Below are positions 32,006 to 55,555 of a stretch of DNA of 64,000 nucleotides, piece by piece. The notes under the pieces were generated by a model that did not search any database, had not been told where the DNA came from, and saw only the letters and a program-made list of their open reading frames with translations. The stretch lies in the NCBI GenBank assembly GCA_905221605.1, contig CAJNDS010002631.1:186001-250000 (forward strand). Direction: 5' to 3'. The stretch comes from Symbiodinium natans. Lineage: Eukaryota > Sar > Dinophyceae > Suessiales > Symbiodiniaceae. Position numbers and translations under genes: made by a program. Within the stretch, counting starts at the first letter, position 1, and every line of letters starts with the position of its first letter.

Positions 32006-32101
32006 CTATATCCCCCTTGAGAATTTTTTTGTTTTTGTTTATTTAAACCCCAAGAGGATAGTAAACATATTATTTTTATTAAGGTTCTAAGGGGAGTATA
32101 G
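32006..32101. mobile_element. MITE family 1 copy, 96 bp, TSD AATC
   Basis: Starts CTATATCCCCCTTGAG and ends CTAAGGGGAGTATAG (inverted). AATC lies directly on each side. Confidence 0.9.
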
Positions 32102-32531
32102 AATCCCTACCATCCCGCACCTGAAACCGATTCCCCATGAGGGTTCTAACGCTGATGGCTTGGGCTCACAGCTTGGCGTGTTTAGTTCCGGAACTATCGT
32201 TGGCATTGATCGCTGCTGTGCTGAGCGGCTATGACAACGGAGGTCGGGGAGCTTGGCAGAGTTTGGGTCGTAGACCCTAAACCCTAAACCCTAAACCCTA
32301 AACCCTAAACCCTAGGGTCGGAAGTTAAGGTTGCTTCTTCTGGTATTTAGAGGTTGTAGTGGGATCTTCTCTCAAGAACTCGAGATCTAGGAGGCCCCTA
32401 AACACGCAATTGTTTCCTTCCAGAAATCCGAAGACCAGCAATACACGCCTTTCACGGCGTACTGTTCGGTTCCTAAGCTGAACCCCAAAACCTCAACGCA
32501 CCATACAGGGATTTAGGGTTTAGGGTTTTAC

Positions 32532-32921
32532 TTGCGCAAGAGTGCTCAGTCCCCGAGCAGCTTTTGGTTCAGCATCCTTGGGGTTAAAAGTGGCTGGGAG
32601 CTTGGGTGGGTCGAGGGGGTTTATAAGGAGCTGAAGACAGAAGCACTTGTGGAGCGATGGCTTGAAGGTGCACTTTGTACCTTTCGAAGCCGAGAAGAGC
32701 TGTCCGAGCATGTGTTTGCGCAATTCCATCACATGCTGCGGACTACACTGCTGCGCACTGCTGGGCTTGCTTGCCAGGAGTGTGCGCCAGCCGATGCTGA
32801 TTCCGGCGCGGGTGCGCAGGCTTCTTTCCGCGCAGGGTTTAGGGACGACGGACTCCAGCGGTGTTGCATTGGAGGTTTTCAAGAACCTGAGGCCAATCTT
32901 TTGGGTTCAGGCATCGTGTGA
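32532..32921 (+). CDS. Coding-like frame, unknown protein
   Basis: Open for about 129 codons with protein-like helical composition: GVYKELKTEALVERWLEGAL and EELSEHVFAQFHHMLRTTLL, then a Cys/Ala/Asp-rich stretch. Follows a short TTTAGGG tract at 32,511-32,528. It may be one longer exon; family not recognised. Confidence 0.4.
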   Translation: MRKSAQSPSSFWFSILGVKSGWELGWVEGVYKELKTEALVERWLEGALCTFRSREELSEHVFAQFHHMLRTTLLRTAGLACQECAPADADSGAGAQASFRAGFRDDGLQRCCIGGFQEPEANLLGSGIV

Positions 32922-33342
32922 GTTTGATCGAAGTTCATAGCTTGAGAGGCCGGGGCAGTTTGGGTGTTGGGTTTGCGGTCTGTGCCCTCACAACCCCATT
33001 GACTGACTCGCCTTTTGCTTCCTCTTCCTCGGCAGTCGACGGCCAACACCAAACCATGCGAAGTCCAGTTTCCATGGCCTATCAAGAAACACTCGATGAT
33101 TTGGCGTCCTCTTCACCCGACGGGTGTAAGATTGCTGCGGCGGGTGCCAGGCCTTGTCGGTCCAGTGCACACTAAACACTCGTTGATAGCCTAAACGGGG
33201 TGCAACATGGAACCCGAGACACTTGAACTTTCGACTGCTAAAACAAAGGGCAACGGAATACCATGGATCAATCATTCAAGCGATATGCTCCTCCATATTC
33301 TCCCTTCGGTTAAGCCCATGTACAGGCTTCGCACTCTGGTTA

Positions 33343-33395
33343 AACCCTAAACCCTAAACCCTAAACCCTAAACCCTAAACCCTAAACCCTAAACT
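33343..33395 (-). repeat. CCCTAAA array
   Basis: Seven to eight perfect units. Confidence 0.95.
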
Positions 33396-33785
33396 CAGTC
33401 CCACGTTCGAGGGACCTTGGGCTTTGAGAAGCTGAATTGCTGCACCACATGGTCTCGACACTCCCATTGAGCATAGGCTTGCAACAAGTGTTTTCCCTGT
33501 TGCTGTCCCAAAAAACAAAGCAAAGCCACTGAGCACAAACACAGAAATCATGTCCCAACGGTTTTTCGTTGGAGGGTTTCGGGGGATGGTTTCCAAGTCA
33601 TGCTTGAGTAGCCTCATCTGTCTTGGCATGATCTTGTTTGCTGGGCTTGTTTCGATTACCCCCCCCCAACACAAGCAGCATGGATCTTGGCTACAGGACT
33701 GGATCTTCGTAAGGGGGGCTTGTGGGATAATGTACTATGCAGGCAGAGTATGGACGAAGGTCTCTAGGGTTGCAAGGCCGGTAAT

Positions 33786-33868
33786 GATTAGGGTTTGGGG
33801 TTCAGGGTTTTGGGTTTAGGGCTTAGGGCTTAGGGTTTAGGGTTTAGGGTTTTGGGTTTAGGGTTCGG
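33786..33868 (+). repeat. Degenerate TTTAGGG array
   Basis: Units vary among TTTAGGG, TTTGGG, GCTTAGGG and TTTTGGG. Confidence 0.85.
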
Positions 33869-33906
33869 GACCCCCAAAACCCAAAAGGCCGCCAAGAACT
33901 CCCTCG

Positions 33907-33967
33907 TCAGGCCCTGCAGGAGGCCTCTCAAGAGGCCACCCAGGGCGATGAGAAGTGCGAGACCCAG
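33907..33967 (+). CDS. Exon-like segment, unknown gene
   Basis: After CGTCAG|GCC the frame reads ALQEASQEATQGDEKCETQ. Lies between a telomere-type array and a family 1 MITE. Confidence 0.4.
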
Positions 33968-33970
33968 TTT

Positions 33971-34064
33971 CTACATCCCCCTTGGGAATGAGTTTTTTGC
34001 TAATATAAAACCCCAGAGGATATTAAACATATTGTTTTTTATGAAGGTTCTACGGGGAGTATAG
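33971..34064. mobile_element. MITE family 1 copy, 94 bp
   Basis: CTACATCCCCCTTGGG ... CTACGGGGAGTATAG, flanked by GTTT and GTTC (duplication with one change). Confidence 0.88.
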
Positions 34065-34139
34065 GTTCTGCAGCATTTTACGGGGAGCTTCGTGCTGTCT
34101 TGTTGGAGAACTGGTTTGAAGCCATACGCAAGGCTGGGC

Positions 34140-34188
34140 CCAAAGCCCTAAGCCCTAAGCCCTAAGGCCCTAAGCCCTAGGGCCCTAA
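34140..34188 (-). repeat. CCCTAAG-type array
   Basis: CCCTAAG replaces CCCTAAA in every unit, so a variant unit was amplified. Confidence 0.85.
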
Positions 34189-34503
34189 ATGAGGTTTTCT
34201 GCCTCAGCTTAGTCGAAGCATAGCAGCTTCTTGGCTCCCACTGTCGAATACCGAGGCCATTAATTGAGCCTGTCGCAGAGACGAAGGCACCGACGTTCCT
34301 GCGTGGTGTTTGGGGTTTCAGGAGCCCGAGTTATAGAGTACTTTTGGCTGAGGCGGGCTTTGAGAGGCGGTTGCTGCTTAAACATGTCGTGCTCTAAGAG
34401 ACACTTCGCCCCTCCAGGTGCCAAGCACTAGAGCTGCCACATCCTAATTCCCCTAGGTGGGAGAAGGGGGACCCTTAGAAGGGAACCCTTCTTCACCTTG
34501 TGC

Positions 34504-34577
34504 TGGCTCTATTAAACAGGGACCTTATTCAGAGGGTCTATATCCCCAAAAGGGTCCCCCTAATCCTATCCCCTACC
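34504..34577. mobile_element. Short dispersed element, family 5
   Basis: Second copy of the 30,721 element. GGGGGACCCTT at 34,472 is inverted relative to AAGGGTCCCCC in the element, suggesting the full unit starts near 34,440. Confidence 0.72.
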
Positions 34578-34903
34578 TAAAAAATCGTGAATAATCTCAA
34601 CCCTGGTTGCTTGCTCCACCGGCAGCTGGTTCCGCCTTCCCAAAAAAGGGGACCGACTCGCCTAAAGAAGTCCTGGAACTCTCCGCCTTCCTCAAGCCCG
34701 GATTCCTAACCCCGTGGTATGTAGCTGTGCAAAAGTGCTGTACCAAAAAAGCCCTAAATTTCAACAGATCTCACACATGGCGAATTGGATTCATGACATG
34801 GCGCTACATGCATCCGGTTGCATCTCGAATCCAGACCTGGAGTGTGTAAGAGCATGCCCCTAAAGTTCGCGCTGCGCCACAACGTAGCGATGGCACGCCG
34901 CAG

Positions 34904-34973
34904 GCCGAAGAGGAAGAGCCAGCTGCTGACGATGCAGCCGCTGGTGAAAAAGGCCCGACTACGCCAACCAAGG
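34904..34973 (+). CDS. Exon of an unidentified gene (acidic, Ala/Pro-rich)
   Basis: AEEEEPAADDAAAGEKGPTT then PTK. Acceptor CGCAG|GCC; GC donor in phase 1 that joins exactly to 35,112. Low-complexity linker type. Confidence 0.6.
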
Positions 34974-35111
34974 GCAACTTCAGAAGTTGAACCATGAGTT
35001 GTTCGGGCTTGCCTTCATGCTTTTTGTTTTTTAAGGAGGACGTGTGGGGCCTGGGGCCATGTACCGAGTCAACTCATGCCAGGTCAATATTGAGGACTTG
35101 TGGCTTCAAAG

Positions 35112-35174
35112 GCTCAAAGACATCGAAAGCGACGGACGCGGGCCCGTTGACCCCGAAGCCAGACGAAACAGCAC
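35112..35174 (+). CDS. Exon of the same unidentified gene
   Basis: GSKTSKATDAGPLTPKPDET then A. Acceptor CAAAG|GCTC; GT donor in phase 1 compatible with the exon at 35,833. Polar and Pro/Thr-rich like its neighbour. Confidence 0.6.
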
Positions 35175-35712
35175 GTGAAAGTCGAAACGCTAAACCCGCA
35201 CTTGCTTTGGCCACAGTCTTGCCGAGGGGCTAAGGATGGGTTTCAGGTGGGTCATTCAAGGTTTAGGCGATGTGTGGACAGGCTCAGGCCTGACAACAAT
35301 GGGCTTCAAGGATTTAGGGTTCGGGGTTTCAAGGATTGCAGGGTTTCGGCTCTGAATGTTCAGTGACTCAATGATTTCATTTATTCATCTATTCAAAAAG
35401 CCTTTGGGTGGCCCAAGCTGCCCAAAGGCGCGGCTGATCTTTGGGTTTTGCTCTGAAGGAAATCTGTCGATGTACAGCTCGCGCTTCTGCACCTGGTTTT
35501 CGAGTTCCCCTGTGGCCCTGTCAAGTCTTCAAGACTTAGGGACGAAGCTCGTAATTTCCATTCAAGAGGCCTGTAGAGCCCAGGGTTCAAAATCTCACAA
35601 GCCCGCAGAGAGCTCCCACCTAAACCCTGGAGCCATTCATATTCCGCCTATCTGCAAGCTGCACTTGAGCTGCGCTTGAGAAGGATCAGAGGCCAGAAGT
35701 TCCAGAGCTAAG

Positions 35713-35803
35713 GTTTAGGGTTTAGGGTTTAGGGTTTAGGGTTTAGGGTTTAGGGTTTAGGGTTTAGGGTTTAGGGTTTAGGGTTTAGGGTTTAGGGTTT
35801 AGG
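35713..35803 (+). repeat. TTTAGGG array, 13 perfect units
   Basis: No variant unit over 91 bp, among the cleanest arrays in the window. Confidence 0.97.
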
Positions 35804-35832
35804 GCTCCAACCAGTCCTCTTGATCTGACAAG

Positions 35833-35893
35833 GCAAAGGCAGCGGATCTGCGCCTGAGGCCGACGTGGAAGGCTCCTTCGATCAGTTGTCCCG
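35833..35893 (+). CDS. Exon of the same unidentified gene
   Basis: GKGSGSAPEADVEGSFDQLS. Acceptor ACAAG|GC and GT donor. With 34,904 and 35,112 it makes three consecutive phase-matched joins. Confidence 0.58.
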
Positions 35894-35920
35894 GTGTTGT
35901 CCCAGTGCTGTCCCAAAATG

Positions 35921-35966
35921 GGGGTTTAGGGTTTAGGGTTTAGGGTTTAGGTTTAGGGTTTAGGGG
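35921..35966 (+). repeat. TTTAGGG array
   Basis: Abuts the family 2 element that follows. Confidence 0.92.
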
Positions 35967-36049
35967 TACCTTCTTGGGGTCCTTACCATAAGGGAATCCT
36001 ACTATTTGGGGGTCAAGATTAGGGGTCCCTTATTTTTCGTAAACCCCCA
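35963..36049. mobile_element. MITE family 2 copy, left end eroded
   Basis: GGGGTACCTTCTTGGGGTCC through TTTTTCGTAAACCCCC; the left terminus is lost into the array. Confidence 0.78.
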
Positions 36050-36291
36050 AAATGAGCGTGCGGTGCATGAGTTTTTCGTTCCCCCCTGAAATCCTTTACC
36101 ATCAAGGTGTAATGATGCAATAAGGCAAAGCCATTGATTTTCCCTTGTTTCTTTTGAATTTCGCTTGTTTTTTTTCACTAGTTGAAATCTGTCATCATCA
36201 AGGCTTAGCAATTTATTCTCCAAACCGCGCTGTTTGGGTCCTCTCCTCAGAAAACAAGAGGAACGAGCCTGGCTGGATGGATGTATCGCAG

Positions 36292-36568
36292 GTTCCGGAG
36301 CGGGGGTGCCGCGGTTTGGCTGGGCGGAGCCTCCCAAATCTTTACGTCCACGCCACCTTTGGGGTTTCTAATAACCAGGCTCCAATCAACAACCCGAACA
36401 CCCGAACGGGAAAGCCGAAAGGAGGCGGCAAGGGCATTTCCGGCGGCCCTTGCGACGGAGAAGGCTAAGCACGAAGCTGGCCTTGCCTTTGCGGAGAGGC
36501 GCGGGAGTGTTTGCCTGAGGCACATCCAGAGCGCTGCGCAAGAGGCTTCAGCTGGGCGACCGCTGTAG
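36292..36568 (+). CDS. Coding-like segment, helical
   Basis: From TCGCAG|GTTCC the frame is open to TAG at 36,566-36,568 and includes ERESRKEAARAFPAALATEK and AKHEAGLAFAERR. Its phase fits the exon ending at 35,893. It may contain an unrecognised intron. Family not recognised. Confidence 0.42.
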
Positions 36569-36614
36569 CTTCCGGATAAGAGTTTCATTCAGATCTGCTT
36601 ACCTGCGCGAAAAG

Positions 36615-36710
36615 GCAATTTCGGCGGATGCCAGTGGACATTCTGCCGCTGGCCCTGGCTGAGGACAGCCAACCGCTGGTACGCCTCATGAACAGGATGA
36701 TGGTGGATGC
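36615..36710 (+). CDS. Exon-like segment
   Basis: QFRRMPVDILPLALAEDSQP then LVRLMNRMMVDAW. A GA donor after GCGTG joins in phase to 36,957. Strong protein character, no family recognised. Confidence 0.5.
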
Positions 36711-36956
36711 GTGGATTTCGGGTGACCCGCCGGATGACACCTGACAAAGATCATACAGGCGTCGAAGTTGACGGACGTCAGGCTGGGGACCTCCCATTTG
36801 TGGCCATGGACTTTGGGCTGCGATCGGTTGACCGAGAAAAAGGAGCGTAAAGCGCCAGGAAAGCTGAGCGCAACTCAAAGCGGGTACCCTGTTGCTGTGT
36901 CACGTTTCCTTGCGTTTCTGCTGAGTTTGGGGAAGCCCTACCCCCAACAGCTTTAG

Positions 36957-37006
36957 GATGCTTGACATGGGTGTGTCGGAATTCATGAAGGCGCCGTGGG
37001 AAGATG
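36957..37006 (+). CDS. Exon-like segment
   Basis: MLDMGVSEFMKAPWEDG after TTTAG|G. The next coding-like piece is ELVAAVLGMGARG at 37,222-37,260 after CCCAG|G. Confidence 0.48.
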
Positions 37007-37221
37007 GTGACCCGAATTAGCCTATGCAGTTCATCCTGGCGGTCAGTGTAGTGCTATTCAGCCCTCCCCCGTTTTCCCGCCCCTTGCACCCTTTTCAGCC
37101 TTCCTGACCTTGCCGGAGCAGCTACAGTTTCGCGTTGCCGATTGAGCGAGGTGGATGCCAGGTTGTTTGAAGTGTTGACCTCTGTGGGGGGTGGCTGAGC
37201 TCTCGTCTTGCCCGTCCCCAG

Positions 37222-37260
37222 GAATTGGTGGCAGCCGTATTGGGCATGGGTGCCCGTGGG
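37222..37260 (+). CDS. Exon-like segment
   Basis: ELVAAVLGMGARG after TCCCCAG|GAA. Short; phase can match the previous segment with a GA donor. Confidence 0.4.
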
Positions 37261-37845
37261 GTTGGTTTTGCATTTCTGTGTTCACTCTTTCACTGAACCA
37301 ATGCACTTTCTAGCTCGTGCGTTAAAACAAGTGCCGGGAGTTTGGAGCACGATTAAGAATAGCTCGAAAAGCTTGAATGACAGTCCCAAATTAGTTTTTA
37401 CAATGTTTTTTCTCCAAAGGCCCTTTGATTTGTTTTTTGTAATGAGGCATGGGGCAGAGGTTAAATCCTAAATGGCAAAGTGCTCAACAACGAAGACAGA
37501 AGGGTCGTTAATATTAACCATCTGAACATGGGAGCTGAGCTTCAAGGTCGTGTTTGCTGTCGGTTAGGACATTCGCCGGGCCGGTCTGGAAGTGTGATAC
37601 GGATCTGCCGTGTTCCATCCACACTGAATCCACACTGTCATAACTCAAGCGCGTTTCAAGGTTTAGGGGTTTGGTAGGAAGTTTAGGGTGCCGTTTCAGG
37701 ATGCCCTGAAGCCTTGAACATGTGCGACCCGCCTCAAAAGCCAAACGCGTACCCGAACTTTTGTCTTGAATGATGCGCAAACCCCCCAGCATCCGGACAA
37801 ATGGTGCCGTAACATAGCTCAGCATCCGAGCCTCAAACCCTGACG

Positions 37846-37890
37846 GCAGGCACGGCACCTGCGCGGGCACCGGCGGTTAGCAAGCCGCAT
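37846..37890 (+). CDS. Exon-like segment, Ala/Pro-rich
   Basis: TAPARAPAVSKPHAEA after CGGCAG|GCACG. Linker-like composition. Confidence 0.38.
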
Positions 37891-38047
37891 GCCGAGGCAT
37901 GTTGGGTGCCCCCTGAGACCGGAGCCACAATGATGACTCCACCCAACCGTTTCCGAGCCCCCAAAACATATGTATGCCTTCGGCATCTTCGGCCCTCAGC
38001 CCCTAAGCCACACTGTCGTGAACCTCGAAGCCCAAAGAAAAATGTAG

Positions 38048-38125
38048 CATGCACGCCCCCCAGGGTGGCCTCGGGCTTGATGAGGACTGTGATGACCTGG
38101 CGCAACTTTTGGCACGTGGTTCCCA
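38048..38125 (+). CDS. Exon-like segment
   Basis: MHAPQGGLGLDEDCDDLAQL then LARGS in an open frame; borders not fixed. Confidence 0.35.
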
Positions 38126-38695
38126 TACGATCACGGTTTAGGGGAAGAAGCCCTTAGCTGTTGATGTCATGATCAGCGAGAATGTCAAAAGCGCATATCT
38201 TAAGATATCTTAAGACTCCGATGATTTCAGCTCGTAGGCTGAAACCTTGAAAGGTTCAAAACTCTTTGGTTCGACCATTCTGGAAACCTGCGAGGCAGCT
38301 ACGCAGGCAGATGAAAAGCAAGCAAAGCAGGCAACAATGACAAGAGCACGTGTGGCAGACTTTTGAGGTGTAAGTGTTCGAAGCAGGTCTCTAGTAGCAT
38401 GTCAGGGCATATGAGCTTGTCGAGACAAGGGCTTCGGACTTGGAAAGTTCGAAGCTGAACAGCATATATGACCCTGAGTCAGGCCGGAAGCCTTTGGAGC
38501 TGGCATACATCCTTGAACCTGAAAGCTTATAGACTTGCAGCACACCTTGCCCAAAAACCATAAAGTCCGAAAGCTGACATGCTGGGGCGTTTTGGGCCTA
38601 TTGAGAGGATGACAGCATGCCCACACCTACGACGCTGCCGAAGGCCCTGAGCCGGCTGTCCGTTTGAATGTGATTTTCTGGCTGAAGCTGGTAGG

Positions 38696-38732
38696 GGTTT
38701 AGGGTTTAGGGTTTAGGGTTTAGGGTTTAGGG
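38696..38732 (+). repeat. TTTAGGG array
   Basis: Five units. Confidence 0.93.
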
Positions 38733-38987
38733 TCGGGACACCAAATGCTGCAAAGGGTTTGGGAGACGGAACTTGAGGGTCTCGTGTGCCCGTTCAGCAC
38801 ACAAGCCCGAACATTCGCCAGCCTCCAAACGCATCAACACCTTGGCCGTTGAGCGGATTGAGAAGCAACGTGTCACAGCGAACATGTCCCTTCAAGTAGG
38901 CCCTTCAAGCACAGATTTTTGGATAGACTTCAGGCGGCGTGCCGGGTCAAGCAGCTCATGCCGGCTTCTAAACAGCCCTACACAGAA

Positions 38988-39062
38988 ACCCTAAATCCTA
39001 AACCCTAAAACCCTAAATCCTAAACCCTAAACCCTAAATCCTAAACCCTAAACCCTAAAACC
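38988..39062 (-). repeat. CCCTAAA array with CCTAAATC variants
   Basis: About ten units, every second or third one carrying TCCTAAA. Confidence 0.92.
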
Positions 39063-39078
39063 ATCGCAAAGCCTGCAG

Positions 39079-39138
39079 GCCATGTCCCCGGGCGACACGC
39101 TGAAAGGGGAGCTTCAGGCCGAAGCAAAGAGTGAGGCG
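39079..39138 (+). CDS. Exon-like segment between opposite arrays
   Basis: AMSPGDTLKGELQAEAKSE after CTGCAG|GCC, held between a CCCTAAA array and a TTTAGGG array. Confidence 0.45.
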
Positions 39139-39170
39139 GGCTCAGGGTTGCCGACCCAGGGCTTCCATTG

Positions 39171-39235
39171 GGTTTAGGGTTTAGGGTTTAGGGTTTAGGG
39201 TTTAGGGTTTAGGGTTTAGGGTTTAGGGTTTGGGG
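39171..39235 (+). repeat. TTTAGGG array
   Basis: Nine units, the last TTTGGGG. Confidence 0.95.
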
Positions 39236-39596
39236 TTGAAACTCATTTTTTTTTGGGGGGGGGGAGGGGGGGTCATATTTCATCCACCTTCTGTGTCGCT
39301 TTTCGTCCCAAGGCTCTTTGCATCCCTTTGCCAAGAGCTCATCAGGCTATGCCAGTGCACTCGTCTGGAAGCTCCGTCACCCCGATATGCATTAATTGTG
39401 CTCCCAATAATATCAGTTTGGGCTGCCTCCTTGGGACTTGGCTACGATAGACAGAACACCTGAACTTGTTGGGGTTTGAAGTGTCATTCGATCTGACACT
39501 TTCGATTTACGGGGTAGGTCCATAAATCCTGTACTTCCCGGTTCCTTACACATGACGATCTGGGGATGTCCTGGGCTGCTCGTTATTCAGCTGCAG

Positions 39597-39668
39597 GCTG
39601 CTTTGTCCGCGCCTCCGCCCAGACCAAAAGGTGCGGGCGTGCCGGTGGGAGGGCCGCTTCCGCAGCAC
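39597..39668 (+). CDS. Exon-like segment, Pro/Gly-rich
   Basis: AALSAPPPRPKGAGVPVGGP after CTGCAG|GCT. Confidence 0.35.
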
Positions 39669-39994
39669 CTAATTTCTCTTCAAATTCATCGAGGGTTCTT
39701 TGAGGTTGTGCAGGTGCTATGACCTTAGAGTATTGGTTGTGGATTTTGGCGGTTTGAGGTTCTGGGCCGAAACCAGCATTCCCAACATCGATGCCATGTG
39801 AATCAGAAGCATGAAGGCCGAATCACTCGAACCAAGTGCTGCTGCGAAACCGTCTGCGCTGGTTTGCTTTGGGTTGTGTTCAACACCGCTGGCATCGTTT
39901 TCGGGATGCTTTTTCATTCCCTAATCGCCCTGCACCGTGCTCTGCTGTTCGACGGTTCTGGCAGGCTTCGACACCAAAACCCTTAACCCTAATC

Positions 39995-40093
39995 CTATAT
40001 CCCCCTTGGGAATTCCTTTTTTATTTTTGTTTATATAAAACCCAAGAGGATATTAAACATACCATTTCTATTGAGGATCTAAGGGGAGTATAG
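39995..40093. mobile_element. MITE family 1 copy, 99 bp, TSD AATC
   Basis: CTATATCCCCCTTGGG ... CTAAGGGGAGTATAG with AATC on both sides. Confidence 0.92.
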
Positions 40094-40810
40094 AATCTGC
40101 TTGTAATGGGCAGTGGACCCAAAACAGTGCCCCAAGACGCCACGGATTCGGGCCAGTTGTGCAAACTTGGGACATTCTGCGTCCAACAAAGATTTGTAGT
40201 TCGAGGTAGAGGTGGGCCACTAGGATTTCAGCATTGAGGGTTTTATGGATGCTCACAGCAGTGGCAGCTAGCTGCAGCCATGTCCCAGGTACAAGGATGC
40301 TATTTGTAATTCGGATATCAAGAGTATGCTGCTTGAATCCAAGCAACCACGAACCCACACCAACACTGCAAAACTGCATGTGCGCCCAAGGAAAGGAAAA
40401 GGAAAGTCTGTGGCGGGACGCTTAGAAAGAGCTGTCTGGAAGAGGGAGAGCCCCCACAAAACCCTATAGAGCCCTAAATTGTGGCTAGGGAGGGCACAAG
40501 TTGAGGACAGCTTGTACGGCCCAAGGGTGGCATCACTTTTCCATTGCTTTCGCTTCGCTCCGGTTTCTGGCATTAGAGAGAGGCACCCTTACCCAGTTTG
40601 AAGTCTTGTTGGCTGCGTACCACTCTTTGCCACCCCACGCTGCGACTTGGAGATACCTGTGACGTTGTACTTGTTCCTCTCAGGGTCCCCATCCCTTGTA
40701 AGATCTCAAGCCCCAGAAGCACCGAGCCCACAATTAGTTGCAAGACACTTGCTGCAGAACACTTTGAAATCTGATGCCATAGTACGCATTGCATGTTATC
40801 GGCTCATTTA

Positions 40811-40812
40811 GA

Positions 40813-40859
<47 letters not shown>
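40811..40859 (+). repeat. (GA)n microsatellite
   Basis: About 24 GA units. Confidence 0.97.
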
Positions 40860-40862
<3 letters not shown>

Positions 40863-41029
40863 CGAGGGGGGTAGCATTTGGGGAGATCATTGCTGAATAC
40901 TCGGGGGAAACCGCACACCTCGCGATCAGAGGGGGGCTACGAAAACCGTGGCCCTTCCGAACAAACTGACCAGTGGACTTCGCGCGCCCCTTGGGGCAGC
41001 CTTCCCTTCGGGGGGGGCTAAGCGTGCAG

Positions 41030-41232
41030 GAGAGAGAGAGAGAGAGAGAGACAGAGAGACAGAGAGACAGAGAGACAGAGAGACAGAGAGACAGAGAGAC
41101 AGAGAGACAGAGAGACAGAGAGACAGAGAGACAGAGAGACAGAGAGACAGAGAGCGAGAGGGAGGGGGAGGGGGAGGGGGAGGGGGAGAGGGAGAGACAG
41201 AGACAGAGAGAGAGAGAGAGAGAGCGAGAGTG
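41030..41232 (+). repeat. (GAGAGACA)n satellite
   Basis: About 15 octamer units between (GA)n ends, with a GGGGGA stretch at 41,161-41,188. Long frames across it are repeat artefacts. Confidence 0.97.
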
Positions 41233-41432
41233 AGCCAAGTTCGATTTGCCGCCGTTGCGTGGATGAACATGGAGCAGCCATTCCTTTTGGACTGATGGGT
41301 CGTACGCTACTGATGGAGTCTTCGTATTTCGCGAGCCAGTAGTCCATCAGCCCCATGAAGCTGAAAAAAAAATCTTCGTGCCCAAGCCGAACAAACACCG
41401 TGAAACCTGAAAACACCCAGATCCTTGCATTG

Positions 41433-41477
41433 GCAGGCCAAAGGTGGCGGCAAGGATGGTGCCAAGGCCCACATTCA
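41433..41477 (+). CDS. Exon-like segment, Gly/Lys-rich
   Basis: AKGGGKDGAKAHIQ after TGGCAG|GCC. Confidence 0.35.
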
Positions 41478-43346: not shown

Positions 43347-43355
43347 CCAGCCCAG

Positions 43356-46046: not shown

Positions 46047-46142
46047 AGCTCCAGGAGCCCCAGCAGCGACGTCGGCCAACAAGGCGGCGGTAGCACCAGC
46101 CGCGCCGCAGCAGCAACAGCAGCAGGCCTTTGAGCTCAGGGT
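46047..46142 (+). CDS. Exon-like segment, Ala/Pro then poly-Gln
   Basis: APGAPAATSANKAAVAPAAP followed by six Gln and AFELR. Probably belongs with the 45.4-45.6 kb exons; reading frame ambiguous because of the repeat. Confidence 0.42.
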
Positions 46143-46146
46143 TCGG

Positions 46147-46230
46147 CCCTAAACCCTAAACCCTAAACCCTAAACCCCAAACCCTAAACCCTAAACCCCA
46201 AACCCCAAACCCTAAACCCTAAACCCTAAA
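46147..46230 (-). repeat. CCCTAAA/CCCCAAA array
   Basis: About 12 units, three CCCCAAA. Confidence 0.95.
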
Positions 46231-46332
46231 CGGACTACGTTGGTCGATACTAGAATCTTGAAAGCCTGGTAAGATCGCGCCGCGGAAGCTTGGCTTGCAA
46301 GATTTCAGTTGAAGGCCCGGAAGGTCACATGA

Positions 46333-46391
46333 GGGTTTAGGGTTTAGGGTTTAGGGTTGAGGGTTTAGGGTTTAGGGTTTAGGGTTTGAGG
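46333..46391 (+). repeat. TTTAGGG array
   Basis: Eight units with one TTGAGGG. Confidence 0.93.
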
Positions 46392-46887
46392 GTCGTTCTT
46401 CTTCTCTTGCCAAGACCTCAAGCAGTCTGGAACTTCTGCGTGGCATGTGGAGATCCTTCAGTAGACAGCCGTATTGCTTAAGAACCTGACGTACCGCCGG
46501 TAAATGCCCCAAGCAACAAATTCGTTCTGGTCCGCCAGACAGGTTATTGCGCAGGCTGGCAGAGGATGTGTCAAATCGAACATCTGGTTTATGGTTTTGA
46601 GGTGTTTGGGTACAGGTTTCAAGCTTCTGGGTTCAACTTTCAGACAAGGGAGTTGGGCGGAGGCGCAGCAGAAGAACACACCCATCATGGTGACACCGTG
46701 CCCAGCTCCGATGTCGGCTTCTTGACGTCGCAGTGAGGGTTGTGAAGGAGTTTGCTGTCGTTGTGTGCGGGCAGAAATGCTTTGCTGACCGTACAGTAAC
46801 AGGATGCCGCCGCATTTCTCGACGCACATGCGAGCACGATCACACACACACACGCTCACACACGTATGAAAAAAACTAATCTACTGT

Positions 46888-46997
46888 ATTTGCTTAAGAA
46901 CCCCAAAAGAATAAAACGAAATCATAATCCCTATATATTACCCCTTAATAAGGAAGATTTTTTTGTTTTAGGGGGGAGGGGGTTCTTTCGCAATTAG
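46888..46997. mobile_element. MITE family 4 copy
   Basis: TTGCTTAAGAACCCCAAAAG at the left and GGGGGTTCTTTCGCAATTAG at the right; the middle has diverged and gained a G-run. Confidence 0.8.
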
Positions 46998-47844
46998 TCG
47001 TCTGGGGCCCTAGAATACCGAGTCGCGTATGTAGGGGGTCCAGCAAGGTCCAGTCACCGTTCCACACTTCACGTGTCGCATTCGCTGAGTGAAAGCAGAA
47101 ACTCACCAAAAACATGGCCACCCAATGCCTCAAGATGACCAATTGGTTGCGGCTGCAGACTCCGTGCTGAGGACCAGCTGTGGCAAGGGGCCCCCTTCGC
47201 AAGATGCAGGTACTACCTACAAGAGCTTTACTGTAAAATCATGCACAATCTCGCAGCTCAAAGCCTAAACCCTAAACCCTAAACCCTAAACCTTAAACCC
47301 AGAGACTGTTCCAGGTACCGACACAATTGGCTGATCAGCGGCAGCCATCGTGGCAACCAAGACGTGCAGCAGACATGAGCTTGGGTCAAAGGCTTCATTC
47401 TTTAGGGTTTAGGGTTTAGAGTTTCGATTGCATTCACTCAAAGTCAACGCTCTACGCCATCATGAGCCGGAGGTCTTAAACACCACAGTTGCTTCAGTTG
47501 AGGCTGTGGGTCTAACTGTTCTCCAACGGTGCCCTAAGCTGTGCGTCATGTAACTGGTTGGGCGTGGAGGTTTAGAGTTCAGCCAACCGTTGTTCGGATG
47601 TAAGCTGGGGGACTGGGTGTCTTTGCCAGATTCTGCTCTCCAAACAAGTACTACGTCAAGCCCAAACTCCGGAGTTGAACTGTCTTCTTGCAGCGCTTTC
47701 AGGTTCAGTATTGCATCCCAAAGTCTGTGCAAATGTCTTCGAGAGTTCGAGGCCTGCAACCTGGGACATAGATTCGAATATCAGGGGCAAACCGATCAGG
47801 ACGGCGTATGGGGGCGGATGGCACACAGCCTTCGGCAAAGGCCG

Positions 47845-48115
47845 TCGAACTCTCCTAGCCTTCGTCGAAACTCTTGGCCTTCGTCGAACCCCCCTCCCGG
47901 CCCTTGTGGCCTTCGTCGAACCTCCGGCCTTCATTTAGCCTTCGTCGAACCTTCGCGTTTTTTTTCGGCTTTGTCTTGGCCTTTTGTATCGGTCTTCGTC
48001 GAACCCCCTCCCCCTTCGTCGAACCTCCCGGCCTTCGTCGAACCTTCGCTCGGCCCCCCGGCCTTCGTCGAACTTCGTCTCGGCCCGTTGGTATCCCGAG
48101 TCTTCGTCGAAGTTC
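47845..48115. repeat. Interspersed CTTCGTCGAA minisatellite
   Basis: About nine copies of CTTCGTCGAA with variable CCGGCC-rich spacers of 15-45 bp; the core TTCGTCGAA is palindromic except its centre. All six frames are largely open across it, so the frames are not evidence of a gene. Confidence 0.88.
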
Positions 48116-48232
48116 CCCGGCCATCCTGCTCTTCGGCCATCCTGATGTGTTTTCCCCTTAGAATAGCCTCTGGCACGATGCAACAGCCAGCAGCCGGAAG
48201 TTTGAAGTTTATGAGGGATGCGTCATCGCCAG

Positions 48233-48302
48233 GGCGCGTGGTATGATGCCATCAAGGGGGACATCATGAAGGCCACTGACAATTTGAGGACTCTGTCGGC
48301 AT
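48233..48302 (+). CDS. Exon-like segment
   Basis: GAWYDAIKGDIMKATDNLRT then LSA after CGCCAG|GGC; good protein character, family not recognised. Confidence 0.45.
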
Positions 48303-48977
48303 GCAGAGTGGAAAACTGCGTTGGGGCAACTTTTTAGGTGACAAATGCACTGCAAGCTATACGGCCTTAACTAACGTTTAAGGGTTTGGGATCTTTCTGT
48401 GCCTTAGCTGTTGCAGGGATCCAGTAATACTGTGCACATGTCGAATCCTGAAAAATATGTTAACCTTCAACATCGCATCTGTTTCTGCTGTATTCAACGC
48501 CAATCGGATAGGGAAAGGAATTAAGTTCGAGGCCAGAAAACCAGAAGAGCTGTACGGACTTCACGGTAGCTGCCCTCCTCCGTCAGGTGCCCTGAAAAGA
48601 ATCGAACTTTCTGTTGTCCGAAGCCCTGTCAATACTTAGCCCCCTGAACATCCCTTCACCCTGTCTTGGAACAGACATTCGGCGCTGTGTCGCGCTTCGT
48701 CGGGGGCTGCCGTGCGTGCGCCCCTGTGCTCGGAACCCGGTGAATTTGGGACCAGTCACTTGAGACCTAACTGTAGCTGCAAGAAGTAACATGTGGTAGC
48801 TAGAAGGGTGTGAATCTTGTCACATCGGGCCTTCCTATTTCCCCCCCCCCCCCAGCTGAACCACAACTGTGTTCTCTGCTCTGGCAGGTGATTGACTCTG
48901 GGCCTCGTAGGATGTGGGAGCATCTTGTTGCATGACGCCCGCTTCCCAAAGCCCACATGTCAGGGCAAGGCACAGCA

Positions 48978-49037
48978 AACCCTCAACCCACAACCCTAAA
49001 CCCTGAACCCTGAACCCTAAACCCTAAACCCTAAACC
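48978..49037 (-). repeat. CCCTAAA array, degenerate
   Basis: Mix of CCCTCAA, CCCTGAA and CCCTAAA. Confidence 0.9.
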
Positions 49038-49355
49038 CCCGAAGGGTAAACCCAGGGCTTGGGAGTTCAGATTGAGTTCGCAAGGCCATGGCAAGAGTGA
49101 GTGACGGAGCCCGCAAGGGACCGGTTCTGTCGCGGTAGCTGCGGGCGTCCTGGGCTGTGCCCAGGCTAGGCCCAGCCAGCACTCGAATATTCCCTTATAC
49201 TATAATACCCCCCAAAAAACCCTGTTCTAATTATTAAGGCCCCTATGCTAGACCACAGCTCAAAAACCCAAAGCCCGGGCTAGCTCAGCACTGAAAGAAA
49301 AAGGACGGCGTTAGGCAGACCCAAGACCATGCTAGCGAAGCCGCAGAGCGGAACT

Positions 49356-49396
49356 AGGGTTTAGGGTTTAGGGTTTAGGGTTTAGGGTTTAGGGTT
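49356..49396 (+). repeat. TTTAGGG array
   Basis: Six units. Confidence 0.94.
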
Positions 49397-49468
49397 GCAT
49401 CCTTCAACCTATGAGATCCACCCCGAGAACCAATGAATATCATCCCAGGGTCTGCCGAGACCTTATCT

Positions 49469-49575
49469 GGGTGCTTGTCAAAATTATGGTTTTCTTTTTG
49501 GGGTCCCTTTTGTAATAATACGGCACCTAATATTTCGGGTAACCCAAAATGGGATCATAATTTTGACAACCACCC
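49469..49575. mobile_element. MITE-like element
   Basis: Inverted ends GGGTGCTTGTCAAAATTATG and GGGTGGTTGTCAAAATTATG (one difference over 20 bp). Interior TTTGGGGTCCCTTTTG resembles no other family here. Confidence 0.85.
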
Positions 49576-49731
49576 ATGTGTTAAGTGAGCAATCCCTGCA
49601 CCCTGGGCCCCTGGCCGTCCCAGCAGCCGCTTTAATGCCAGCTTCCCGTCAATAGCTCGCAGAACGTTCGGAAGGGCAGCCGATCACACAACGCTGTTCA
49701 ATCGCCGTTGGTGTTTTGGGATGGCCAAGGA

Positions 49732-49842
49732 CCCAAAAAGCCCAATACCCCTTGATTAAGGAACGTAGCTTAAATTATAAAGGGATCCTCATTATAATTT
49801 TTAAGCTATATTCCTTGATTCAGGGGTATTGAGCTCTCTGGG
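49732..49842. mobile_element. MITE family 3 copy, complete
   Basis: CCCAAAAAGCCCAATACCCC ... GGGGTATTGAGCTCTCTGGG, palindromic arms around AAATTATAAAGGGATCC. Confidence 0.85.
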
Positions 49843-49844
49843 GA

Positions 49845-51190
49845 TGGGTGAAGGGATGCTCAGTCTCCTTGGCTTGTCAGGGCCCTGAAATCCTTCACGA
49901 AAAGCCATCGGCCGGAAGCCCTGAACTACCAGACCATCACGGCTTCTGCTAGGCGCTCGCCGTTACCTTGAGGTGGGTGTTTAGGGTCAAGCGCTTTGCA
50001 GCAAATCGTGCTAAGTTGTGCTTTGCTCGATCGGGAAGTAGCAGCATGAAGCACATCGAAACAACACAACGAAGCTCGAGTGATCAGCAGCCGCTTCTGC
50101 AGCAGCCTCATGGCATCACCGGATGGGCCGGCTGTTACAAATTCACAGGTTTGAGACGAAGCTCGTTGCTCTCAAGATCTTCAATTGCAGGGCACGACCC
50201 TTATCTTGATCGGAGCACGTCTGAACCTGTGGCGGAATGCCGTGGCTGACGCATGCTGCTTGCATGCTACTCGGACATATGTCTCATGAGGACGCAACCC
50301 AGTGCTAAAACAAACCTTGAATCCTGAATCACGCCCCCCTTCCTTCAAAGGGCCCCAATGCCGGTCTCTCTGGATCTGAAAACTCCGTAGAAACAGCATT
50401 GTCATGCCTTGCACGGACCATCTTGCGGGGGACCAGATCCTTCGCGCGCGATGCACTGCAGTTCTGACTGAGATTGGAGTTTTGGGGCTTTACACATGTC
50501 TCGCAATGCCATCAACAGAGTTCAAAGCTCAGCTTACGTTTCAACGCCCTGCCCAAGCAATCTTTTCCTATCTTTTCCTTTGGACGTATCATTAAGGTCC
50601 CCTTCCCAGGAACCCACGTGGGCGTGCAAGCAGCCTCAAGCAGCAGAAGAGCTGGAGGTTGTCAAAGACGTGGAGGTTTTTGGAAGCCCTTTTGCCAAAA
50701 AGGCAATAAGTACAATGTATTTCTTGTTTACGGGTTTAGGGTTTAGGGACTTCCTGACGAAAGCTCCCCGGCATAGGACAGTCATCCGGACGCCCTGTAA
50801 ACCCTTTCAGAGACCGCCACTTTGACGAGCAATCCATTTGGGAAGCTCAGCCGGAGGCGACTCCGGCAATTAGCCGTTGCAGCGCAGGTGCTCTTGATGG
50901 CATTGGGCTGCAAAGCCTGGGGGTGCCCGACAAGTTAGCAACGGTTAGCAGCACAAAAACTCCCTAAAGCCCATACCGCCCACAACCGGACAGACCTTTC
51001 ACCTGCAGCCAAACAGCAAGAGGACCACCCAACAACTCTGAACCCCAAAACTTCTTCGCCCAATGCAAGAAGAACTACCAAAAACAAGCCGCACAGCACG
51101 CTGAAGAACCAACAATGTCCAGGGTCATCGCCAGAGCTCTGATAACGAAGTCAAGCCCTGGGGCTCCGGATCGTTCTGCGCTTTTTAGGT
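49845..51190. other. No gene fixed
   Basis: Overlapping short frames only; a few coding-like stretches (for example near 49,968-50,249 and 50,474-50,825) have no recognisable family or clear splice sites. Confidence 0.35.
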
Positions 51191-51505
51191 TGCGTCGGGT
51201 TTAGGGTTTAGGCTTTAGGCTTTAGGGTTTAGGATCATGGGAGCATGGGTGGCAGGCTTTCGTGTGTTCGGGCTGCGAGGTGCGGGATTGCACAGGTAAG
51301 GGAATGCGCGCGGTTTAGGGAAATCGTTTTCCAAAATCCGATTGAATACTGGATCTTGGTTTGTTGGTACCCTTTTGTGGACCTTCATGTGAGACATTGC
51401 CTAGCAACTTAGAGTGAAGAGTTGCGAAGCTTCCGTTTTGTACCAAATCAGACGGTCACAGAAGTGCCACTTAGTCACTTGGTTCAGGAAGGTTGCAGAA
51501 GAGTG

Positions 51506-51600
51506 AGGGTTTAGGGTTTAGGGTTTAGGGTTTAGGGTGTAGGGTTTAGGGTTTAGGGTTTAGGGTTTAGGGTTTAGGGTTTAGGGTTTAGGGTTTAGGG
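51506..51600 (+). repeat. TTTAGGG array
   Basis: 13 units, one GTGTAGGG variant. Confidence 0.96.
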
Positions 51601-51752
51601 ATCCAGGTTGCAAGAGCTTTGCGATCGTTAGGCAGCTTGGGGGTTTTGCAAGTTTTGCCCGGCTCACCAGGGCCCTGGATCCGGAGTCCTGACTCGGGGT
51701 AGCAGCAAAAATCTGCGGATGATTCAAAGCCCGCATCGCTGAAGCGAGTCAC

Positions 51753-51813
51753 AGGGTTCAGGGTTCAGGGTTTAGGGTTTAGGGTTTAGGGTTTAGGGTT
51801 TAGGGTTTAGGGT
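51753..51813 (+). repeat. TTCAGGG/TTTAGGG array
   Basis: Two TTCAGGG units then seven TTTAGGG. Confidence 0.95.
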
Positions 51814-52168
51814 CATGTCTCTGGGTTGACGCTACTTAGGGTCTCGACCAGTTTCTCCGGAGCTGCGCAACATCGGGCTTTGAAAGTTTCTGTCTTCATG
51901 CGTGCTGGAAGATCACGCTGTCGTCGAAGGAAACGATCATGCTCATGGTGCATCCAAACCTGGAGCATTCGATCCTAGAGCCCTGCACCCAGTTCACCCT
52001 CAGTCCTTGACCTCGGCCGCGAACGACTACCATCACCCACCGTCAGCTATCGAAGGCCAACCACGGTTTTCGGTTTTGGTGTTCAGGTAGTTCCGGCCAG
52101 GGGCGAAGGAAGGAATGTTACAGGTTGCCGCTGATCTTTGCGGTTTGACCCCCCAAATAGAGGTTCGA

Positions 52169-52213
52169 ACCCTAAACCCTAAACCCCAAACCCTAAACCC
52201 TAAACCCTAAACC
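52169..52213 (-). repeat. CCCTAAA array
   Basis: Six units, one CCCCAAA. Confidence 0.94.
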
Positions 52214-52579
52214 GCGGCCATGAGTTCGCAGTCCAGCTTGTCTGCAGCCCAGTTTTGTTGAGCTCTGCGTCATTGTGAGGCGCACTGGGCTGCCTTTGCC
52301 CAACGTTCCCCAATGTCCGAGCCCTCAACCCTTGACTCAACTGAAGCCATGAAGCTGATGGACTTTATATGGTTTAGGGTTTAGGGTTTAGGGTTTAGGG
52401 TCTTTATGCTCCCAAGACCCAAGTCGACCCAAACCCCAAAGCCAAACAAACCGCCCAGCTTTGCCCCCTCCCATGGCCAAGCATCGCTAGCAGCTGCGAG
52501 CACTGCCCAGCATTGCTGGGAACTGCAATGTGTGACGAGGCGCCCCCTTGAGAGTGACAATGCTTGCAAGTCTTGCTGA

Positions 52580-52696
52580 GGGTTCAGGGTTTAGGGTTTA
52601 GGGTTTAGGGTTTAGGGTTTAGGGTTTAGGGTTTAGGGTTTAGGGTTTAGGGTTTAGGGTTTAGGGTTAGGGTTTAGGGTTTAGGGTTTAGGGTTA
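52580..52696 (+). repeat. TTTAGGG array, longest of this region
   Basis: About 16 units with one 6-bp TTAGGG unit; a second smaller array lies at 52,371-52,400. Confidence 0.97.
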
Positions 52697-52759
52697 GACT
52701 CGCTTTGGCTCTGCTTCTCTTGGGCCCAATGGGTGTTGGAAGGAAGATGCGGCCTTGAG

Positions 52760-52802
52760 CCCCAAACCCCAAACCCCAAACCCCAAACCCTAAACCCTAA
52801 AC
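52760..52802 (-). repeat. CCCCAAA/CCCTAAA array
   Basis: First four units CCCCAAA, then CCCTAAA. Followed by an exon-like APSPQTLVRQRIEAGTEP at 52,819-52,872. Confidence 0.93.
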
Positions 52803-52818
52803 TTGAAACCCAAAAGCG

Positions 52819-52872
52819 CCCCGTCACCCCAAACCCTGGTGAGGCAGAGGATCGAGGCGGGCACTGAGCCGT
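52819..52872 (+). CDS. Exon-like segment
   Basis: APSPQTLVRQRIEAGTEP in an open frame ending in TGA at 52,873; borders not fixed. Confidence 0.35.
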
Positions 52873-52916
52873 GAGCGCTTATCAGACGATTGAAAGCATT
52901 CATAATTGTAAAGGGT

Positions 52917-52995
52917 TTGGGGTTGAGGGTTTAGGGTTTACAGCATTTAGGGTTTAGGGTTTAGGGTTTAGGGTTTAGGGTTTAGGGTTTAGGGT
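52917..52995 (+). repeat. TTTAGGG array, interrupted
   Basis: Two blocks separated by TTTACAGCA. Confidence 0.93.
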
Positions 52996-53368
52996 GATTT
53001 TAGGTTTCAACTTGCTTTTCGAGCAGGAGGTGGTTTCAGTGGCGTCAGTGGTTCCACAGCTTCAACAGCAGCTCTTTTGCTGAGGGTCGCTTGAGTCTTG
53101 GGGTGCTCGTACTCCGGGCAGAACCAACATGTGGCAGGTCCCTAAACAGTCTTCAACCGCTGCACTCCTGCAAAACTCTGTAAAAGATGACGCGGGGCTT
53201 GGGCGTAGGTGTGCTGCGTACCTGCAGCATGTCACGGTTGTTGGGTCACTCAGTTGTTTTGCGTCCCGGATGTCATGGCTCTAGGGCTCTAAGAATTCAA
53301 GGCCTTGAGGTGACAGGTTATCTTATCGCTTTACTTCAGCCGGAGTTCACCACATTCCCAGCATTCCT

Positions 53369-53719
53369 GTGGCTCCAAATCACAAGTTTGGCGACTCATG
53401 GACAAAGGCAGCGCGAAATCCTAAGCCAGAGGTCTCTTCTTCTCAGCACCATTGTGCCGATTTCTTCTCATCTCCCGGCAGCAGGCAGGGCACCAGCAGC
53501 AGCTTGTTTTTCATGGCTTGCAAGATCTGCTTGGCCAGCAAGCAAGCACCACAAGACGCTTGTGAAGCAGCCATGTCGCTTTCACCTAAAGCGACTCAGT
53601 CACTGTACCCACCATACCAAGTGTGCGAACAGGTTGAGGACAGATCCCCCGATGAAGGCACTGCTGATGTGCCACGGTTTGAGACCTGCGAGAACTTGTC
53701 TTGGGATGTGGCAGTTTAG
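53369..53719 (+). CDS. Hypothetical open frame
   Basis: About 116 codons, Ser/Cys-rich: CADFFSSPGSRQGTSSSLFF, CKICLASKQAPQDACEAAMS and PRFETCENLSWDVAV before TAG. Protein-like but no domain recognised. A second frame overlaps it (53,187-53,726), so coding status is open. Confidence 0.32.
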   Translation: MAPNHKFGDSWTKAARNPKPEVSSSQHHCADFFSSPGSRQGTSSSLFFMACKICLASKQAPQDACEAAMSLSPKATQSLYPPYQVCEQVEDRSPDEGTADVPRFETCENLSWDVAV

Positions 53720-54349
53720 ACTGTAGGATCGAGGTTTGAGCACGTCAAGAGGTTCAGTTGCTATTTTCTAACAGTGGCAGAAGTTCATTTCAGAAGTCTG
53801 GGAGAAGATACAAGGCAACTGTGCTTCACAGTGCACCTCGGTTCAAAGCGCAAGCAAATCGGAGCCTCCCACCTCCCCCCCCCCACCCACTTCCGCCACC
53901 ACATGACGGGTTGCTTTCCTCGAAAATCGAGCTGCCGGGTCTCCGAAGTCGCATCATCTCAAAGACAACCGAGATGTCGGAAGGGCAACGAAGCAACCAT
54001 TTTGTGTTCAGCCGAAGCCCAAGCCCTCGATGTCCGTGAGCAGTATAGCTTCGTTTCGAGGGCCCCTGCTTGCAAAGCAGAAAAGCTAGCCAAGGTGCCT
54101 GCTGACGCCCTGCACACGCCCAAGACCACGGAGGTCGAAAAGGAGCCCTTTCTTTCAGACCCTATACTTCCCCCCCCCCCCATACACAACCTGCCGGAAT
54201 GGATTCTTGTCTGTACCTGATCGATGGCGGGCTTGCGCCTTCTGCATGAATCGGTAGCCGCACCTAGTCATGTCTCAAACAGGTGCGCTTTGGTGAGTGG
54301 GCCTTAGGCCTTAGACCATTCAAATCCTCAAGCTGGAAGTTGATTCACA

Positions 54350-54456
54350 TGGGGGTTTACGAAGATAGGGGACCCCCAAAACAGACCCGCAAGTAGTAGG
54401 ATACCCTGAAAATAAGGACGCCAAAAAAAAGGTACCCGGAGTATCGTAAATCCCCA
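54350..54456. mobile_element. MITE family 2 copy
   Basis: TGGGGGTTTACGAAGATAGG ... TATCGTAAATCCCCA. TA follows on the right, CA precedes on the left. Confidence 0.83.
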
Positions 54457-54671
54457 TATGTCAGCTGCAAGGATTTTTGGGCTGCGGCTGGGGTTAGGGC
54501 AGTCAAGACTTGCTGTCGTTCCATGTCTAGTTTCTGAGTCGGGGGCACGTGCATGCACGTTTCTGGGCCCGGAAGCATGAACCATCGGCTAGTAGCTGAA
54601 TGAGTACACTTTACACTGTTTGGGATACCATAATCCCCAAAAGAAGACCCTAAACCCTAAACCCGAAAACA

Positions 54672-54734
54672 CCTAGACCCTGAGCCGACCGAGGAGGCCT
54701 ACCGAGAGGAAGGCCGGCTGCCTTTGAACCAGCT
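54672..54734 (+). CDS. Exon-like segment
   Basis: DPEPTEEAYREEGRLPLNQL then T after a short CCCTAAA tract. Confidence 0.38.
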
Positions 54735-55257
54735 GACACTTGAATTTAAAGGCTTACGGTTTGCGGACTAAGGTGTAGGGTTTAGGATATAGGGTTTTGA
54801 GTTTTAGGACTTGGGTTTGCTTCTCAGAAACTTGCGACATAGCTTGAGGCAAAAACCCTAAACCCGAAAGGATATTATTGGAATCTTGAAGTGCAGGTGC
54901 TCTCCGGCATTGCTGCGAGCGAGCTTTTGACCTCGCAGACTTTGCACGCTCGCTAGGCCCAGAGGGGTGGGAAGGTAGCTAGGCAGTCCAGGACTATTCT
55001 TTTGTTTTCTAAACCCTAAACTCAGGGCCTACTCCCTGAAACTGCCTCAGTTTTTAGAAGTGGGCTGTTGTCTGAGTTTAGGCCTAAACCCTAAAAGGAA
55101 TAGGTTTGGGTGGCTTTGCCGCCTTGGACGGCGTGGGGTGGAGAAAAGTGTTAGATGGCCCTCCACAATCGGGCCAATGCTGCTTTTCGCACCTCACGAA
55201 GCTTTCGAGCTTGTTCCGAAACCTAACCTTCACAGCATCTACGCCCTATCACAGCAA

Positions 55258-55332
55258 GCCCTAAACCCTAAACCCTAAACCCTAATTAGCCCTAAGCCCT
55301 AAACCCTAAACCCTAAACCTTAAACCCTAATT
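55258..55332 (-). repeat. CCCTAAA array
   Basis: About ten units with CCCTAAG and CCTTAAA variants and an ATTAG interruption. Confidence 0.93.
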
Positions 55333-55460
55333 CTAACTTTTTTTTTCTGTTGATTTTTTGCTTTCCTCGAAAATTCAGCTCCGTGGCTTCAGGCTTCAGG
55401 GGCATGGCGGTCGGATTCGGGCCTGTAGTCTAGCCATGTTTGGCCTGGGGTTTAGGGTTT

Positions 55461-55555
55461 CTATATCCCCCTTGGCTTTTTTTTATTTTTGCTTATATAA
55501 AACCCAAGAGGATATTAAAAAGATTGTTTTTAATAAGGTTCTAAGGGGAGTATAG
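55461..55555. mobile_element. MITE family 1 copy inserted in a telomere-type array, TSD GTTT
   Basis: The left flank TTTAGGGTTT and the right flank GTTTAGGG show that the target was TTTAGGG DNA. Ends CTATATCCCCCTTGG and CTAAGGGGAGTATAG. Confidence 0.93.

Follow-up and report, generated by a model that had tools for sequence, protein, structure and literature searches.

A family of elements of about 95 bp in the dinoflagellate Symbiodinium natans very probably represents a non-autonomous DNA transposon of the miniature inverted-repeat transposable element (MITE) type that acts as an introner, i.e., that creates introns, and most of its copies share their orientation with neighboring copies. 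This reading is based on DNA sequence from a stretch of 64,000 nucleotides (forward-strand positions 186,001 to 250,000 of contig CAJNDS010002631.1; from here on, the window) and from genome-wide searches of the 759.4-Mb assembly of 2543 contigs. The window contains five copies of the element, all on the + strand:

32006-32101, + strand: element copy 1, 96 bp; target site duplication (TSD) AATC (32002-32005 and 32102-32105); no coding flanks
33971-34064, + strand: element copy 2, 94 bp; flanks GTTT/GTTC, an imperfect duplication with one mismatch; no coding flanks
39995-40093, + strand: element copy 3, 99 bp; TSD AATC (39991-39994 and 40094-40097); no coding flanks
55461-55555, + strand: element copy 4, 95 bp; TSD GTTT (55457-55460 and 55556-55559); inside a TTTAGGG array; no coding flanks
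3534-3631, + strand: element copy 5, 5' end decayed, 3' end GGTTCTAAGGGGAGTATCG; nhmmer E value 1.3e-17, model positions 17-98

An earlier note on this DNA had described four intact copies starting at 32,006, 33,971, 39,995, and 55,461, with inverted ends and the flanks AATC, GTTT(C), AATC, and GTTT. All of these features were recovered, with copy lengths of 94-99 bp and with 3 mismatches over the 15 positions at which the two ends of the element were compared (12 matches). The four intact copies had nhmmer E values of 2.2e-29 to 5.2e-26 using a model that was built from the same four copies. With up to three mismatches allowed, the two end patterns had nine and eight matches in the window, whereas shuffles averaged 2.3 and 1.6 and never reached the observed numbers; some of the matches are due to chance or come from the other end of one and the same copy. 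We note that five copies per 64 kb represent a local cluster and that the window drew attention through these copies.

The genome search and the tabulation of TSDs that the earlier note had proposed both support a MITE-type family. A strict two-ended pattern had 407 matches in the genome (200 forward and 207 reverse) and none for the reversed control, while 3826 matches (control, 8) were found for the 19-nt 3' end when up to two mismatches were tolerated, i.e., one match in every 198 kb or so. In viral contigs, this 3' end had no exact match, and in bacterial contigs it had one, which we took as chance. Sampled copies are 82-108 bp long with imperfect terminal inverted repeats of 15 bp, and the end pairs are kept in 71-72 of 72 copies, which were themselves selected using these ends. 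TSDs were tabulated for 60 distinct copies comprising 56 fetched loci and 4 window copies; L001, which duplicates a window copy, was omitted, and the sample omits copies missed by the search expression, such as the L005 copy and the fifth window copy. A 4-bp TSD is exact in 46 of these 60 copies, with 38 different sequences among the 46, and no TSD of another length was found over 3-8 bp. Among the 46 exact TSDs, 20 have G at position 1 and 18 have C at position 4. Thus, the family has the short length, high copy number, terminal inverted repeats, and fixed-length TSD of a MITE. Folding of the alignment predicted only pairing of the ends, and these pairs hardly vary, resulting in no covariation signal; single-copy folds of the sense strand of the four intact window copies gave z values of −1.5, −3.2, −1.4, and +0.5, and one antisense fold gave −1.2. 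Elsewhere in the genome, element copies form a head-to-tail cluster with a spacing of ~95 bp (C136:735685-736155), and one copy (C1769:412081-412193) holds an internal run of TTTAGGG repeats.

In the introner model that we tested, the 5' TSD copy and the element together form the intron, and coding sequence continues from the 3' TSD copy. Copies were assigned to the donor class if they have an exact TSD starting with GT, GC, or GA (G[TCA]), as was the case for 19 of the 60 copies before donor-class loci were added; considering the 5' side only, G[TCA]NN is located directly 5' of 129 of the 407 strict copies. The enlarged set comprises 72 copies, of which 29 belong to the donor class, with the added loci having been chosen for this class, while 27 have another exact TSD and 16 have no exact TSD. 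For each copy, we computed a codon score for coding sequence in a single frame on the two sides of the joined site, using a threshold of at least 3. This threshold was reached by 16 of the 29 donor-class copies and by none of the 27 copies with another exact TSD and none of the 16 without an exact TSD (Fisher, 1.6e-8 for 16/29 versus 0/43). Elsewhere, the rate of such scores was 15% at 405 flank positions and 2% at random window positions. Similarly, joined frames of at least 140 codons were present at 15 of the 29 donor-class copies versus 3 of the 27 and 3 of the 16 copies in the other two groups. At 16 of 18 loci examined, the element together with its TSD has stop codons in all three frames; the remaining two, L037 and L046, keep one stop-free frame. 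At the DNA level, and at many loci, two coding stretches that share a frame are separated by precisely the element and one copy of its TSD. Moreover, the proteins encoded at L030 and L003 are made of repeats, and neighboring repeats lack the element at the equivalent point, giving an empty site within the same gene; the candidate intron is, therefore, absent from paralogous repeats at these two loci in this one genome. As the earlier note had anticipated in proposing that the element brings its own AG acceptor in front of a G, donor-class copies would supply AG|G in the form TATAG|G. These results support that the family, which has the introner features that can be tested on DNA, works like an introner.

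Joined proteins from 15 loci were scanned in Pfam (7 + 8), and the following seven had matches:

L046: glycosyltransferase 8, residues 157-412, junction after 321; 48.1 bits, cut-off 24.3
L082: ubiquitin, residues 19-73, junction after 55; 36.0 bits, cut-off 25.4
L030: RCC1-like PF25390, residues 161-411, junction after 174; 128.7 bits, below the cut-off of 150
L087: peptidyl-tRNA hydrolase, residues 24-92, junction after 39; 21.2 bits, below the cut-off of 27
L047: NCD3G, crosses the junction; below cut-off
L055: Asp/Asn hydroxylase domain, stops short of the junction
L088: weak Pfam matches only

At L030, the RCC1 repeat model PF13540 exceeds its cut-off. The L046 protein also matches glycogenin in the PDB, with the junction segment aligned without gaps and scoring just 3.2 bits.

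Several observations weigh against an introner function or restrict it to a minority of copies. Based on the TSD classes, most copies of the element are probably not introns by the route in which the TSD provides the donor, and 14 of the 60 sampled copies, including the window copy at 33971, have no exact 4-bp duplication. Six of the loci had also served to train the codon score; with these excluded, 10 of 23 donor-class copies still reach a joined-site score of at least 3. On the antisense strand, six donor-class copies also score at least 3, with one scoring at least 5 and none at least 6, and at L087 the antisense score (4.9) is slightly higher than the sense score (4.3). The unspliced read-through runs are shorter but not always short, with medians of 179, 72, 84, and 64 codons for GT, GC, GA, and other copies, respectively. 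Finally, Pfam gave no match for 8 of the 15 joined proteins (L003, L034, L045, L074, L078, L080, L084, and L086), and the L034 protein had no match in the PDB.

The suggestion in the earlier note that these elements are introner candidates is supported for the family, in which donor-class copies split coding sequence exactly, and is not supported for the four copies that it listed. Codon scores at the four intact window copies were 0.00-1.00 in sense and 0.00-0.77 in antisense, i.e., all below 3, and none of these copies has coding sequence on both sides. The AATC duplication of copies 1 and 3 provides no donor on the + strand; it reads GATT on the − strand, where coding flanks are likewise lacking. 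We, therefore, rejected the four as introns with a TSD donor on either strand. Judged by their sequence, these copies are members of the introner family, and intron status is unsupported for each of them.

Orientation is largely conserved among element copies within about 200 kb of each other, an unusual feature in an element of this kind. Using 196 merged places among the matches listed from the strict and 3'-end searches, supplemented by some places from a further search, on contigs other than that of the window, we found that 46 of 49 pairs of adjacent copies on the same contig and less than 200 kb apart have the same orientation. By distance, agreement among these matches was 6/7 below 10 kb, 12/13 at 10-50 kb, 13/13 at 50-100 kb, and 15/16 at 100-200 kb; pairs from the same contig are partly dependent on each other. 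The pairs below 10 kb include the C136 tandem cluster; when all pairs below 10 kb are set aside, 40 of 42 agree. Farther apart, agreement was 8/11 at 200-400 kb and 8/14 at 400 kb-1 Mb. In a second set from later contigs (89 places among the matches listed, mostly donor class), 10 of 10 pairs agree, including 5 of 5 at less than 200 kb. As a control, we used a repeat from the same window, the core of which has 3351 genome matches and which occurs in mixed orientation in the window; here, agreement was 8/21 for pairs at distances of up to 201 kb (Fisher, 1.6e-6 versus 46/49 for the element). This control repeat is a second short family of ~90 bp with copies at window positions 11288, 12497, 12564, 19656, 29197, 35963, 54349, 63200, and 63527. 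Among sampled copies without a usable donor or an exact TSD, 13 of 13 agree with the nearest neighbor within 250 kb, based on a list compiled by hand among the matches listed in which 4 of the 13 rows are mutual or share neighbors. Many copies are located outside recognizable exons, and yet their orientation follows large strand domains. In the passages of Gozashti et al. 2022 (PMC9860276), including the section on insertion preference, there is no statement on strand coherence of introner copies outside genes, and the literature matches listed contained nothing on point regarding the orientation of introners outside genes; we do not claim that the result is unpublished.

The simplest reading of this coherence is that element orientation follows transcription. 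For 37 copies without a donor, the summed score of nearby coding sequence was higher on the sense strand in 30; scores exceeded 9 for 12 of these 37 copies, with 9 in sense and 3 in antisense (9.3 to 10.8 for the latter). L007, L015, L017, and L051, which lack a donor and have strong coding sequence nearby, are all sense. Among 13 untrained copies with a TSD starting with G, the sense score was higher in just 8. In the 6-kb flanks of four copies without a donor, clear coding sequence in sense orientation was found for one (L089, which is the same as L015), at 371 bp from the start of the element, while the flanks of the other three have no coding sequence above threshold. In the window, 22 segments with a codon score above 8 are on the + strand and 6 on the − strand, simple repeats counted. 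One item supporting + transcription in the window, i.e., in the same direction as the elements, is the following coding exon:

8313-8447, + strand: coding exon of the phosphoribulokinase/uridine kinase family; codon score 11.8; Pfam PF00485, E value 1.1e-5, 25.8 bits, cut-off 22

In sampled flanks, GC skew relative to element orientation was positive in 33 of 56 (p 0.13, not significant), while TA skew follows element orientation in 37 of 56 (p 8e-4). Base skew was not used as proof of the direction of transcription. If orientation tracks transcription, the element would allow the direction of transcription to be read from sequence alone in such genomes.

Two explanations of the family as a whole compete with an introner. 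An ordinary MITE unrelated to splicing, with some copies located beside open frames by chance, would account for the 43 of 72 sampled copies that lack an exact TSD carrying a usable donor and for the absence of coding flanks at the four intact window copies. It is also in agreement with the TSD base preference: because this preference is symmetric (G at position 1 and C at position 4), a G at the start need not reflect splicing and could be caused by the transposase alone. However, copies that split exons occur in the donor class only, and chance would not sort copies by their TSD; moreover, protein domains continue through joined sites. We, therefore, consider this explanation very improbable. 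Alternatively, the element could spread by RNA, with an excised intron reverse-splicing into another transcript followed by reverse transcription, such that all copies would be sense. Strand coherence and the lean toward the sense strand fit this scenario, to which we nevertheless give next to no weight: excised RNA would bring along the GTNN of its donor locus, whereas the flanking four bases match at each locus and differ between loci (46/60), as after a staggered DNA cut, and the terminal inverted repeats fit DNA transposition.

For an introner that moves as DNA, the orientation pattern could arise in two ways. Selection could remove antisense copies that harm transcripts, while insertion itself is non-directional; we lean slightly toward this explanation. 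Genes of Symbiodiniaceae are arranged in unidirectional clusters as described in passages of PMC11453091, which is consistent with selection; such gene arrays would predict that neighboring copies share orientation over ~200 kb. Also consistent with selection is the finding that there is no clearly antisense exon-splitting copy among the 72, the six donor-class antisense scores of at least 3 notwithstanding. Against selection, orientation is shared with the nearest neighbor in copies lacking a usable donor as well (13/13), and the control repeat of similar abundance shows no coherence (8/21), although tolerance of the two families may differ. More tentatively, and in our view rather unlikely, transposition itself may be directional, with insertion sense to transcription, or to a co-running replication fork, so that orientation would be set at insertion and not by selection. 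If true, directional insertion would imply a transposon whose integration reads the strand and that is pre-adapted to making introns. The coherent orientation, including that of sampled copies without a donor, makes it testable whether directional insertion or selection against antisense copies gave rise to the pattern.

We propose the following mechanism for the introner. A transposase supplied in trans would insert the element by means of a 4-bp staggered cut. The targets are varied, as the tabulated TSDs show, with a preference for G in the first and C in the fourth position. If the target lies in an exon and reads GTNN, GCNN, or GANN, and if the element inserts in sense orientation, the 5' TSD copy may serve as the 5' splice site and the TATAG end of the element as the 3' splice site (TATAG|G). 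The 3' TSD copy would begin the next exon, such that splicing would restore the message as it was before insertion. Outside exons, as with the four intact window copies, the same element would be present at sites where intron function is unnecessary.

Introners are among the leading explanations for bursts of intron gain. In Symbiodinium microadriaticum, the 3' splice site of introners is located within the element and the 5' splice site comes from the TSD, according to the legend of Fig. 2B in Gozashti et al. 2022 (PMC9860276). As far as that source describes them, those introners resemble the present family in their 4-bp TSD, terminal inverted repeats, and splice-site logic; the example given there spans 115 bp compared to 82-108 bp plus 4 here, a comparison made by description. 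Because the same logic has been published for S. microadriaticum, the introner mechanism is not new. Dinoflagellate introners are also described as transposable elements that create introns by Roy et al. 2023, as summarized in PMC11453091, and the present family is like them in this respect. The introner elements of Amoebophrya, as presented in passages of Farhat et al. 2021 (PMC7789003), carry inverted repeats (8-20 nt) together with direct repeats (3-5 nt) at the ends of introns and share this combination with the present family. Those passages describe variable repeats, largely non-canonical splice sites, and no family-specific inverted repeat, in contrast to the conserved ends and fixed TSD length found here. 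The present family gives a simple rule by which the first two bases of the 4-bp target decide whether a copy can be an intron.

The GC content of the window ranges from 47.5 to 54.8% in 4-kb steps. In a Pfam scan of 10 window pieces, some of just 21-45 residues, the phosphoribulokinase exon was the one match, and the other nine pieces had none. A 433-residue open frame on the + strand (7-1305), for which Pfam gave no match, presumably resembles a reverse transcriptase by its motif. A perfect 212-bp direct repeat is present at 1334-1545 and 1778-1989, and a 73-bp palindrome at 14418-14490, which is 96% identical to its own complement, adjoins a coding-like frame. A further repeat family matches itself on both strands (28237-28336, 49731-49842, and 61226-61335). 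Finally, the window contains many interstitial telomere-like TTTAGGG/CCCTAAA arrays in both orientations (e.g., 6268-6310, 6753-6850, 18398-18460, and 35718-35800).

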